From Thozetella sp. PMI_491 (Eukaryota > Ascomycota > Sordariomycetes > Chaetosphaeriales > Chaetosphaeriaceae), in the NCBI GenBank assembly GCA_021432635.1, contig MU270063.1, positions 372,001 to 436,000 on the forward strand: DNA of 64,000 nucleotides. Reading direction: 5' to 3'. Each line of letters begins with the position of its first letter. Position 1 is the first letter of the stretch. Shown in pieces: positions 57,359 to 63,307 of this stretch. The position numbers and the translations under genes were made by a program. The notes under the pieces were generated by a model. The model worked only from the letters and a program-made list of their open reading frames with translations, was not told the DNA's origin and ran no database searches.

Positions 57359-57981
57359 GGCGGACAGCGGCGCAATCGAAATCGCGATCGCTCCGGGGAT
57401 GTGGTGGTGCAATGAAGGAGAAAATAAAGAATACGGCCTTAGTATCTGTTCGTCGTGGCCGTCTATCGCCGCATCGGAATGTCGCTGCTGCAGGTCGTGT
57501 GTTGTCTTGGGGTGGCAGTCTGGTTTATGATGATGATGATGCGCCCTGTGTTTGTCCCTCTTTCCTTTTTCAGCCCTTAGCAACGGTTTGTTTGTTGACT
57601 TTGCGCCCAAAGTCGAACGCGCCTCCCCCGCATCTAGGCCTTCGCGTCAGACCCACTAAACTTGGGGAACGCCAAGTAGCCACAAAAAACACGCCAAATT
57701 TTCGAGGAATTGGCCATTTTTTCTGTTGGTCTTTTCCGCCCCTCGTTCTGTGTACTCGATCAGTTCATCCCACCCAAATACAAGCGGATCCCTGCCAATC
57801 ACCGGCACCTTTCTTCTTTTCCATTTGCTGTGGATGAATTGAAGGACGTGAGATCGCTATTGGGAGCCTATCCCACGAAACGTTCATAATAGGCTGAGGG
57901 CGGCTTGGTTAGGCTAGTCCAGCTCGGAAGAGTATTCGTGTCTTGCTGCTTCCTTCGACGCGTCTGGTCCAAAGGATAAAT
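57359..57981. promoter_or_regulatory. Bidirectional CND1-CDC7 promoter with MCB-type elements
   Basis: 623 bp separate the two divergent starts. A perfect MluI cell-cycle box, ACGCGT, lies at 57958-57963, 18 bp before the CDC7 ATG, and an ACGCG core lies at 57617-57621 (GAACGCGCC). MBF (Mbp1-Swi6) binds such boxes in G1/S genes of yeasts. Its role here is inferred. Confidence 0.45.
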
Positions 57982-59475
57982 ATGGCGACTACTGCTTCCC
58001 GCCGTCGCCAAGAGGAGGCCTTCCATATCCACGAAGATGCACCCTCGACTGCCGATACGGAGATGAACGAGGAGTTGCAGGAGGAGGAGGAGGGCGATGC
58101 TGAGCAAGAAGAGGACGGTGAGGACCAGCAGTCAGATTATGACGAGAGCTCCGAGGACGAGCCTATCGACTCAACGGTTCAAGAAGACATGGAGAGGTTG
58201 CAGCACAGCTTGCCTCTTTTCCGAGAGAGATACCGCCTGATCAAGCGCATTGGCGAAGGTTGTACTACCCGTCCTCCTCGGCGTGACCACCACTGACGAG
58301 ATGGCACAGGCACGTTTTCGACCGTTTACAAGGCCGAGGATCTCCAGTACGACCTTTTCGAAAACGACTGGGACATGGACAAGGAAAATGAAAAGTGGAC
58401 GCCTCCGCCGCTCAAGCGCTTCCGGGACGTCACGTCTAGTGGTACGATCGATGCTTCGGAGCAACAGTTACAAGAACGGCGACGGAAACCCAAGTACGTT
58501 GCCATTAAAAAGATCTATGTGACTTCGTCACCATCGCGGATCCTCAACGAGCTCGAGCTTTTGCACGACCTTCGGTCCTGCCCATCCGTCTGCCCGCTCA
58601 TTACGGCCTTCCGCCATACCGATCAGGTGGTCGCAATTCTACCCTATTTCCGACACGCAGACTTCCGGGAGTACTTCCGGAAGATGACAGCGGTGGATAT
58701 GGCGATCTACCTGCGGGCTCTCTTCACTGCTCTATCTTCTGTGCACGCCCACGGCATCATCCACAGAGATATCAAGCCAACCAACTTTTTGTACGACCCA
58801 GCCACCCAGCGTGGCGTCCTTGTTGACTTCGGTCTCGCAGAGCGCGAGGGCGTCGAGTCGAAGCCCTGTGTCTGCCACGAGGACCCACTCGTGCGCAAGA
58901 ACCGCCTCAAGGCTGCATTCCACTCCAGCTCGGCGCCGCACAATGGCTACCCCAAAAGCGATACGCGCCCTTCGCGGCGCGCCAATCGTGCAGGCACACG
59001 GGGTTTTCGTGCCCCCGAGGTGCTCTTCAAGTGCACAGAGCAGACAACCAAGATCGATGTATGGAGCGTTGGAGTGATTCTACTCACAATCTTGTCCCGC
59101 CGATTTCCATTCTTCAACAGCGCCGATGATGTGGAGGCCATGATCGAAATCGCCACTATCTTTGGCACGCGACGCATGCGCCTTGCGGGTCAGTTGCATG
59201 GCAGCATGTTTGAGACGAACATACCCACGATTGGTACCACGGGCTTCAGTCTCGAGAAGATTGTCTTATGGAGCACGTGCCGCACCGACCCGGACAGCGA
59301 ACCACTGAGCAAGGAAGAGAAGCTAGCGCTCGAATTCCTCAACCGGTGCATGGAGCTAGATCCCTCCAGGAGAATAAGTGCCGAAGAGGCATTGCAGCAT
59401 GACTTTTTGAAGCTGGGCTTGGACTCTGTCCCTGAGAGCGGTGACGATGAGGATATTGACATGCTTAAGGCCTGA
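57982..59475 (+). CDS. CDC7: Cdc7/Hsk1 protein kinase (DDK catalytic subunit)
   Basis: Exons 57982-58258 and 58310-59475, joined inside the glycine loop (KRIGEG-TFSTVYKAED) across a 51-nt intron, encode 480 residues. An acidic N-terminal tail (about 65 residues) precedes the kinase: VAIKKIYV (ATP Lys), PYFRHADFREYFRKM (a Cdc7 hallmark), HGIIHRDIKPTNFLYD, GVLVDFGLAEREG, a kinase insert with CVCHEDPLVRKNRLK and GTRGFRAPEVLFKC. The C-terminal lobe has TKIDVWSVGVILLTIL and FGTRRMRLAGQLHG. With Dbf4 it phosphorylates MCM2-7 to fire replication origins. The intron donor GTTGTA is weak but is fixed by phase and by family sequence. Confidence 0.96.
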
Positions 59476-60045
59476 GCACTGCAGCATCATTTTGCGGGGG
59501 CGTACGGTAGCTTTCCGGGTGTACCATGTATCATTACTGTACTGTAGACAGGGGTGCTCTAATTGAATGGAATGAATAGATAATGTGCGAACCAACCCGG
59601 TCGTGCAATCTAGACGTGATCGCTCATGATACGCCGGGGATGGTGAGAACTAAAGGCAGTTTGCATATTGCTAGCTTAAATATTCGCAGGTGAGGATCAA
59701 GGATGAGTTGATTCGGCCGTAGGCTTCGCAAACATGCTACCGATCAGCAGTAGACTGCTTCACATATGCTAGAAAGCCAGACGCGATGGGTACCACATTG
59801 CCAACCACGTAGTATCACGCCAAGCACAAGCGTTTCAGCCGTTGCTGTTCATTTCATGATGTTGAAGACCTTTTTTTCATTCAGAACTCCGTGTAGAATC
59901 CGTATCATGCAATGCTCAAATGGAGCCCGGCCAAGATCCCCGTCCGATACAGCCTGCGCAGTTCCATTGCTCGCCCATTCTCTCGGGAGTGGATATCTCG
60001 AGCTCCGTGATGACCAAGTCAGCCTCTTAGCCCCTCTCAACTCCT
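59476..60045. other. Convergent 3' flanks of CDC7 and the uL15 gene
   Basis: No gene was seen in this stretch of about 570 bp. Confidence 0.4.
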
Positions 60046-61511
60046 CTAAGCGACAAGCTCAACAACGCCTCCCTTCTCGGTGATCTTCTTCTCCGCCCTA
60101 TGTCTGTTAGCGGACGGCGTGCGGCATCAGGATGCAAGAAACTTACAACTTCGACACCCAGCGCGCACGGACAACCAGGGGGAAGTCGGGGAGGCGGCCC
60201 TTGCCAAGGACCTTGGAGTAGCCGAGAGGAAGGAGATCAAGTACGGGGACGGTGTCCGACTTCTTGCCGGCGAGGTACTCGGCACGGGTCTCCTCGGGGA
60301 TGAGCGAAACAAGCTTGTCGAGGTTGACAACGGGCTTCCAGAAGTGGTTCTGCTGCTTGTGGAAGTATCGCATACCAACCTTACCGAAGTAACCAGGGTG
60401 GTACTAATCGAAATGTCAGTCACCGAAACAATTCAGCAGCGAAGTAACTCCACTGTAAGGACAGGGAGGTGCCCATCGAGCAGCTGTCGAACAAGACCAT
60501 CGCTGTAGAGCCGGCAGCTTGCGCACCAGCCCATGGCGTAGCTATTATCGTTCGTTTAAACCACTCGTCGGAATCACCCCTCCCGTCCCGCCAGTGCCGC
60601 CAGATAAGGGTAGAGCCGAGGATGTGTACCTTGTCGAGGTTGGTTCGGTGGTGGTGCTGACCACCGGCAAGACCACGACCACCGGGGTGCTTGCGGTGTT
60701 TGCCCTGAAAATTTGAGTCAGTCTCCTGATCACTGACTTCGATGGGATTGCCCAGCGCGCTCGTCCGTCTAGTCCGCCGAGAGGCTCCAGATTTGGCCCG
60801 GTATAGGTTTACTTACGACACGACTGTTAGCGGTTAGCAGGCAATTTCTCAAGCGTGCGGCATGAAGTAGGCTCGACCCAGCGAGTATGAAGTCCTTTCG
60901 CAAGAAAGGATTCCACTATCCGCCGAATCACGACCCCAGGACAGGAATACATACCCCTTACCGGCGGACACGTGGCCGCGGCTACGAAATAAGTCGTTAG
61001 CATCTCCTCCACATCTTGCCCAGTTGAGCCGCCAGATCTGCTGCCATGTGCCATGTGCCGGGTGTCTCGGCCATCGTCTGAGGTGTGCTTTCCGCCGTCG
61101 AAGTCCAGTTTACCGTGTCCCCTCAGCGTCGTCGCCTACACCCAAGAGAGGGAGAGCCGGGGAGAGCCGGGGGAGTTGGAAAGTTCACATCGCAAGTCCC
61201 CTCCTGTGATGGCATCGGGGTGCCATGCTCGCTGCACCCAACGCTCGCCCGGCAATCAAGACAACGCGGCACCCCGTAGCGAAACTCGTCCAGTGGCAAT
61301 CATGGCAGCAGATCGGATGCGAATATCACGGGAGGTCAAAACATACTGCTCTGTAGAGAAATCATGTTAGCAATTGAAAGAAGACGAACAGAGTCGAGCA
61401 AGGAGCGTTCGGTCGAGCCGGGAAGGCAGGACCCCAGGCGCCAGCAGAACACAGAAGTGAGGGATAGAAAGGAGGTAACGTACTCCTCGTCTTGCTGAAC
61501 CTAGTAGGCAT
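60046..61511 (-). CDS. 60S ribosomal protein uL15 (L27a/L28) with 4-nt and 7-nt micro-exons
   Basis: Seven exons (minus): 61511-61484, 61350-61347 (4 nt), 60981-60955, 60823-60817 (7 nt), 60704-60630, 60403-60147 and 60097-60046. They sum to 450 nt and give exactly 149 residues, the usual eukaryotic L27a length. The sequence reads [40 protein letters not shown], then [40 protein letters not shown] and GGVVELVA. The 4-nt exon AGCA supplies the end of Lys10 and the start of His11. The 7-nt exon TCGTGTC completes Gly-Arg-Val. Both are flanked by good sites (CTACAG/GTATGT and AACAG/GTAAGT) with CTAAC branch sequences upstream. uL15 is a structural component of the large subunit near the tRNA exit side. 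A telobox-like element lies in the promoter. Confidence 0.95.
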
Positions 61512-61639
61512 GATGTCGATATGCCCTGTCGTGACCTTGAAAGTTGTTCTGTCTCAGGGTCGAGATTCGCGATGAATGTTTTTCGAGGACTTAGCCCGCC
61601 GCAAAAATCGTCCTTGCAGTTTGGTGTGGGGGAAATTCG

Positions 61640-61647
61640 TAGGGTTT
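61640..61647 (-). promoter_or_regulatory. Telobox-like element AAACCCTA in the uL15 promoter
   Basis: On the minus strand the octamer AAACCCTA lies about 130 bp upstream of the uL15 ATG. Telomere-repeat-like boxes bound by Tbf1-type proteins are known in ribosomal-protein promoters of several fungi. One copy can also arise by chance. Confidence 0.35.
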
Positions 61648-63307
61648 GCCCGATGGGAGGAGAGTGGGGCGCACCTTCCAACACTGCCAATCACTCAAGA
61701 GACCCAATCTAGTCACATGATACAGGTCTGCCCTTGTGCCAAGAGTTCATCCGCGAAATGTGATTAGGTCAGCTAGATAACGAGGCCCTTAACTCTCTAA
61801 CTTACCTATCAGGTAGTTGCCGGCCAGTAGTTAACCTATCTCTCAACACGCCTTAGTGGTCACATCAGCCCACCAGACCAGATCATTTCCAGCTCTCGTC
61901 AGCTTTGGTGCCGCGACACGGTGCCGTGCACCACAGGTGCGTGCTAAGATAGGTTAACGCTCACAGCAGCGTAGAAGACTTGGCCTGAAGGTATCTAATG
62001 TAGTCGCCGCCAAGTAGGCTACTAACATTATGTCCTCTGCAGCAATAAAGGAGAGGGTTCTTCAAAGTTACAATCTGCTTTAAGCCCCACGAGATCACAG
62101 CGGGCCTATCACAAACCAACTGAACTGCTTGTCAACTTGTCAATTTGCCCAACTTCACATGAAGAATGAGTACATGGGAGGAGTAACCCACTCTCGCGTC
62201 CGTGTCATCGTAGCCTATTTAGGGGATTTAATTATTTTAAAATAATATCTTTCTCTCAGAGGTTCCTAGCCAAGAACATCGGTGAGGCCTCTTGTTCCTC
62301 ATAGCTGTCTCGCTCTACATGACATACTGAGAAGGCTGGCAACTTGCAAATTACCGGCAGATACTGCGGCACATTGGCACATTCGCCGATTGGTTTAACA
62401 GAGTACCTAATCAGAGGATTCGTATACAGGAGACCTTAGACCAAGCTTTACCTGCAGCACAGGTGCCAAACCAATGTATCGTCGTGAGCCTACCTCTGTC
62501 TTCCTATTGGCTAGGAAAGTTGGTCGCCGTCCCACAGTTTAAAGCATAGTCTTTTTCGACATCCCAGACACCAATTAGCAATTAATTCACCCTGTCCCAC
62601 AAGTCGAGCGGGCTGAAACTCCCATGGCTCGGGCAACTGGGCCCGTGGACCGAAAAGCTTACTTGAACAAGATGCTGGGTACTGCAAAATTCCCCGATTC
62701 TTCCTTCCAGCTATACCATTTTTCTACTACGATCAGATGCGTATTCCATCACTACTTCTTGGGAAATCAAGAATGCGGTGCGGCCAGCAAATATGTGGCG
62801 ATGCATATCACACACCCCAAAATAGACAAGTAAGCTAACCTCTAGCAATGTCAGCTGGAGCGCTGATTTGGTAGTGATTCTCTTAGTATATGAGAGGCAG
62901 CGCTGTAGGAATTACCTGATTATATAGTACTATGAAAAGCAGACAAAGCAAAAGTACTAGAGCCTCTCAGCCCTCTACTTACGATATAATGGATGATATA
63001 ACTTCCTCATAGAAGTAGAAAATGAAATATATTAAATAGTTTGTCTTCCTGTCTAAGATATTGTGCAGTGAGGCGAAAGGGGTGATGCCATAGGTGCAGA
63101 CAGCGTGTTTCTGCCACTATAAACAATGAAAAGAGACCATGACATTTAAATAGGTAACCAAAAATAGTACTAGTTGCCCATAGCACCATCCCTAAGGTAG
63201 CGACCTTGTAACTGTAACTTTCGTCTACATATGTCTGCACCTAGCCAAGCAACGTGGAAAGTTAATTAACTAAGGCCCGCCTTATATCGACGCCACATTG
63301 AGTGACC
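61648..63307. other. 1.7 kb A/T-richer intergenic DNA, no gene recognised
   Basis: Only short frames are present, the longest being 69 codons at 62624-62833. Composition becomes A/T-rich after about 62,200. No inverted-repeat ends or transposase-like sequence were seen. Confidence 0.4.

Follow-up and report, generated by a model that had tools for sequence, protein, structure and literature searches.

The window analysed here is a stretch of 64,000 nucleotides of contig MU270063.1 from Thozetella sp. PMI_491, and all positions refer to it. On its minus strand (61511-60046) lies a gene with seven coding exons for the ribosomal protein uL15 (L27a; yeast RPL28/CYH2), the product of which is 149 amino acids long. 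Exon 1 (61484..61511, 28 nt) encodes MPTRFSKTR and the first base of Lys10 and was placed by spliced alignment blind to micro-exons. It is followed by intron 1 (61351..61483, 133 nt; GTACGT...CTAAC...CTACAG) and by a second exon of only 4 nt, AGCA (61347..61350), which completes Lys10 and starts His11 and so splits two codons, as had been claimed in a preliminary description of this DNA. Intron 2 (60982..61346; GTATGT...CTAAC...CGTAG) is with 365 nt the longest of the gene and leads to exon 3 (60955..60981), which at 27 nt is micro-exon sized too. Intron 3 (60824..60954, 131 nt; GTATGT...CTAACCGCTAACAG) is followed by the 7 nt exon 4, TCGTGTC (60817..60823), which completes Gly20 and encodes Arg21 and Val22, and by intron 4 (60705..60816, 112 nt; GTAAGT...CTGAC...TTTCAG). 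The rest of the gene, likewise on the minus strand, consists of exon 5 (60630..60704, 75 nt), intron 5 (60404..60629, 226 nt), exon 6 with most of the PF00828 match (60147..60403, 257 nt), intron 6 (60098..60146, 49 nt) and exon 7 (60046..60097, 52 nt including the TAG stop).

We define a micro-exon as an internal exon of up to 30 nt and an ultra-short one as an internal exon of up to 15 nt. The 4 nt and 7 nt exons are micro-exons by this definition, since each has a canonical GT-AG intron with a branch motif on either side, and the evidence for each comes from path counting, shuffling, blind alignment and site scores. The preliminary description had placed them at 61350-61347 and 60823-60817 of the minus strand in a gene for a protein of 149 amino acids, which is where they were found. 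It had also counted four introns in the first 24 codons; four are indeed present, but they all fall within the first 22 (28 + 4 + 27 + 7 = 66 nt). The three successive internal exons of 4, 27 and 7 nt together comprise 38 nt.

After splicing the reading frame is unbroken over all seven exons. The product matches solved fungal uL15 chains over residues 1-149 (best match 7olc chain La, E 5.6e-78), and PF00828 is found in it with 51.6 bits against a cut-off of 21.5, a full-length family match.

Upstream of the gene, approximately 130 nt from the uL15 start, AAACCCTA is located on the minus strand (61640-61647); it was the sole one found of five motifs tried, and it resembles a ribosomal-gene promoter element. 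A reading frame for a protein kinase (plus strand, 58297-59475; PF00069, 140 bits), by eye similar to Cdc7, converges on the uL15 gene. An in-frame ORF directly upstream of it (57913-58296) looks like the start of the kinase, split off by a probable intron.

Micro-exon path

For the 47-residue start, encoded by the first five exons from the ATG onwards, exactly one splice path exists, and it uses both AGCA and TCGTGTC; the target peptide of this count was the translation of the model itself. Neither lowering the minimum intron length from 40 to 20 nt nor admitting GC donors besides GT changed this result, acceptors being AG. Other nearby sites that could supply Lys-His or Gly-Arg-Val, a possibility raised in the preliminary description, were looked for, and in this sequence no GT/GC-AG path that yields exactly this peptide makes use of any. 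Both micro-exons are required for the frame together with the conserved protein, and no other path gives identical residues, in agreement with the earlier claim that a family-like uL15 depends on them. A path that keeps the frame with altered residues does exist and is treated below.

Protein-to-genome spliced alignment gave the same structure. The aligner was informed about consensus splice signals but not about the micro-exons, and with yeast uL15 as query it returned exactly these seven exons; with Chaetomium uL15 it did so again.

How often such paths arise by chance was estimated from shuffles of the interiors of the two regions, in which dinucleotides were preserved and the outermost 10 and 25 bases of the introns stayed fixed. 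A GT-AG path of any kind that supplies the required residues was counted in 117 of 20,000 shuffles of the exon 2 region and in 96 of 20,000 for the exon 4 region, the latter number rising to 206 of 20,000 once Arg21 could also be replaced by Lys and Val22 by Ile. When every donor had to fit GTRNGT and every acceptor had to be a YAG with a CTRAY branch motif, none of the 20,000 shuffles of either region contained a path. In the 72.3 Mb genome the pattern CTAAC-N(3-25)-YAG-AGCA-GTRNGT occurs once, at uL15, as does the same acceptor-donor pattern with TCGTGTC, and the reversed control gave no occurrence for either; since these patterns were derived from the sites themselves, the counts measure rarity and not prediction.

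Splice sites

Donor and acceptor models were built from 22 introns, all predicted in this genome and belonging to eight further ribosomal protein genes (uL14, eL32, uS12, uS11, eL15, uL5, eL19 and uL3). By these models, which are partly circular because the training introns came from an aligner that favours consensus sites, the uL15 gene has 84 GTs, of which the donors of introns 3, 4, 1 and 2 score best. A branch motif lies upstream of 17 AGs, and among these the two micro-exon acceptors rank first and second. The good donors, acceptors and branch sites noted earlier were borne out. Within introns 1-4, GTRNGT is present solely at the first base and CTRAC solely near the 3′ end. By acceptor score alone, the micro-exon acceptors come first and sixth of all 72 AGs, four AGs that lack a branch motif (before 60502, 60452, 60483 and 61135) outscore the acceptor of the 7 nt exon, and exon 3 and exon 5 have acceptors in 18th and 12th place. 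These ranks make the acceptor score alone less telling than the donors. The intron 2 acceptor is at or above just 5 of the 22 training acceptors.

Two further sites of the gene deviate. The donor of intron 5, GTACAC (60624-60629, minus strand), scores below all 22 training donors, and the exon boundary there is required by the protein. At intron 6 there is a tandem acceptor, in which CTAACAG before 60103 outscores CATAG, the family-consistent site 6 nt away before 60097; use of the former might lead to an in-frame insertion of two residues.

The eight other ribosomal genes contain 14 internal exons of 25 to 674 nt, so that the 4 nt and 7 nt exons of uL15 are outliers by comparison. Six of these models (uL14, eL32, uS12, uS11, uL5 and eL19) have no ATG start, and tiny first exons could be missed in them. 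From this survey L008 (uL14; score -7.5 forward, 97.5 reversed) and L017 (uS12; score 70, forward only) were dropped as giving no usable model, and L001, L007, L016 and L024 were left out. Short exons near the 5′ end were seen elsewhere, namely a 13 nt first coding exon in uL3 (L013) and a 25 nt internal exon in uS11 (L006).

The path with altered residues appears when the micro-exon acceptors are blocked in the aligner. The best path then uses tandem donors 4 nt downstream of the proper ones, GTAC/GTTACC after exon 1 and GTAT/GTATTC after exon 3, which join exon 1 to exon 3 and exon 3 to exon 5 in frame with no micro-exons. This gene structure keeps the protein otherwise full length, with Ser-Thr in place of Lys-His and Tyr in place of Arg-Val, and blocking costs an alignment score of 17 for the first acceptor and of 17 or 16 for the second, with conserved residues changed. 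With a score of -1.7 each, where the proper donors reach 9.2 and 9.3, the tandem donors fall below all 22 training donors; the second of them makes uL15 one residue shorter. The residues that they alter are identical in the fungal sequences compared, save for Val/Ile at 22: KH and GRV or GRI are found at the same residues in five fungal uL15 alignments from three species, among the best 60 of 69 matches tabled. Splicing at the tandem donors would moreover leave the strong acceptor, micro-exon and donor signals without explanation. We consider it extremely unlikely that the gene is spliced in this way.

Copy number and relatives

A search of the 72.3 Mb genome (157 contigs) with the full uL15 protein gave this gene as the sole match, through exons 5 and 6, with three candidates scored. 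PF00828 was found at the uL15 gene and at one other place, on contig C5, which is probably the gene for the mitochondrial uL15m. Cytosolic uL15 is single copy in this assembly, which may be incomplete. That incompleteness leaves room for a missing copy, in which case the locus could be a decaying duplicate of an intact gene elsewhere and its micro-exons chance matches. Positive support for such a copy was not found. The full-protein search returned this gene only, the frame is intact throughout, and chance paths with good signals were absent from the 20,000 shuffles at each micro-exon place. The probability of a decaying copy is close to nil, and this explanation was rejected on the PF00828 and full-protein searches of the genome.

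Relatives were sought in a collection of genome contigs and in one of viral contigs. The exon 6 peptide gave no match among 125 candidate stretches of the former and one among 20 of the latter, a 20-residue match of 50% on L004 that was judged to be due to chance. With the full protein, none of 9 candidates matched in the viral collection and one of 153 in the genome collection; no fungal relative was recognised in either. The one match, from the MAG of an uncultured archaeon (L028:5001-5420), is a uL15 that aligns with fungal residues 1-145, with 39% identity in the best segment, and has a similar start, MPTRFRKVRKLRG. The archaeal gene is intronless, and in its product KL and GQI stand at the two places, at unchanged spacing.

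Skipping and retention

If exon 2 alone is skipped, an out-of-frame product of 154 amino acids results, and loss of exon 4 alone gives one of 153 amino acids; in both cases the stop lies beyond the last exon junction. Skipping of exons 2 and 4 together leads to a stop after 50 amino acids. Of the seven combinations of skipped exons 2-4 that were tried, just one keeps the frame, namely the omission of exon 3 by itself. A transcript that retained any one of introns 1-4 would run into a stop after 37-54 amino acids. A search of 59800-61700 against Rfam up to E = 1 gave no match, and intron 2, folded alone, is not unusual (z = -1.61, 8 of 100 shuffles as good).

The preliminary description had proposed that splicing of this gene could be a regulatory point. 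On this proposal the micro-exons are real and in addition regulated, so that their inclusion or skipping, or intron retention, would tune the supply of uL15, for instance by autoregulation; it is compatible with constitutive micro-exons, being an addition to that model. The yeast CYH2/RPL28 pre-mRNA is a classic substrate of nonsense-mediated decay, which offers a lead only. The four introns in the first 22 codons and the early stops upon retention could be taken in its favour, although such stops are expected for almost any intron. A glucose-dependent micro-exon of 20 nt is described for Trichoderma virens (PMC11121469). Against regulation, the uL15 donors are strong and not weak, the Rfam search and the fold of intron 2 were unremarkable, the micro-exon lengths are not divisible by three, and no skip that includes a micro-exon restores the frame. 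Loss of a single micro-exon extends the frame past the last junction instead of stopping it early. Strong sites, such lengths and late stops do not have the look of a designed switch, and the proposal was not supported for the micro-exons; regulation of this kind is improbable.

Discussion

Taken together, the data suggest, with a probability of about 0.93, that this locus is a cytosolic uL15 gene with seven coding exons and two constitutive micro-exons of 4 and 7 nt, spliced intron by intron. Both micro-exons would then be included in the uL15 mRNA, as the genome sequence predicts. We infer intron definition, in which the splicing machinery would identify every intron as a whole through the donor and the branch/acceptor region that belong to it. 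The introns flanking a micro-exon might be removed one after another: once intron 1 or intron 2 is gone, AGCA would sit inside a longer, ordinary exon, and TCGTGTC would be taken up likewise. According to a steric argument in PMC8378409, two introns around a 4 nt exon are unlikely to be engaged simultaneously, which is why removal in turn is to be expected. Under intron definition, exon size would have no lower limit. The 22 introns of the eight other ribosomal genes are 50-248 nt long, and the majority carry a strong donor and a branch motif, which is what recognition of introns as units would lead one to expect; intron 2 of uL15 is long in comparison. The earlier point that exons of this size are too small for exon definition matters little if the genome uses intron definition, as these 22 introns suggest. 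The micro-exons would persist because they encode parts of Lys10-His11 and Gly20-Arg21-Val22 in the strongly conserved N-terminal tail and because any loss shifts the frame.

A more far-reaching interpretation starts from the premise that three successive exons are too small for exon definition. The 4-27-7 nt run might then be ancient and conserved within a fungal clade and place the single-copy uL15 gene under splicing-dependent control, with uL15 output depending on ordered intron removal, or with tandem donors altering residues 10-11 or 21-22 in ribosomes. On the sequence at hand we regard this as very improbable.

Micro-exons have been described before from fungi, animals and plants, and the 4-27-7 nt run is an extreme case among them. 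What stands out is that a single ribosomal gene contains two ultra-short exons, separated by one of 27 nt. Among the literature matches listed, no report of micro-exons in a fungal uL15 gene was found by title and start of abstract. This negative result is limited by a 1987 paper on the Neurospora CYH2 homologue, which reportedly may well describe this gene structure.

The closest parallel is found in the CYP621A P450 genes of Fusarium, in which a 1 nt exon is present in 20 orthologues and covered by RNA reads; an 8 nt exon in Phanerochaete is also mentioned (PMC12940212). As in uL15, a tiny exon in a fungal gene lies in a conserved motif and is needed for phase and protein sequence, and a homologue served as length marker for the inference; the Fusarium exon was missed by gene models. 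The two cases differ in exon length (1 nt versus 4 and 7 nt) and in number, with one such exon described per gene. They differ also in that the Fusarium exon belongs to a rarely expressed P450 with RNA support and 20 orthologues, whereas the uL15 exons are predicted from the genome sequence. Exon 2 of human MPC1 is, like exon 2 of uL15, 4 bp long and frame-shifting, and it is constitutively included; unlike in uL15, its flanking introns are long, and minigenes show dependence on exon-definition sequences in them (PMC9929638). The micro-exon of Xlr2 in Trichoderma virens, also a filamentous ascomycete, is likewise a second exon and was missed in the reference annotation, but it has 20 nt and is part of a glucose-dependent isoform switch in a transcription factor (PMC11121469). 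Plant micro-exons of up to 15 nt are often absent from annotation as well; in contrast to the uL15 exons, the 2,398 plant exons were found with RNA-seq (PMC8831610). The expectation that tiny exons are often missed by annotation is consistent with PMC12940212 and PMC8831610.

By themselves the uL15 micro-exons reveal no new mechanism. If RNA confirms them, an essential gene would be routinely splicing exons of 4 and 7 nt with one of 27 nt between them, and the gene would be a clean natural substrate for intron definition with exons below the footprint of the spliceosome. It would also call for caution, as even ribosomal protein genes may carry wrong annotation in fungi.
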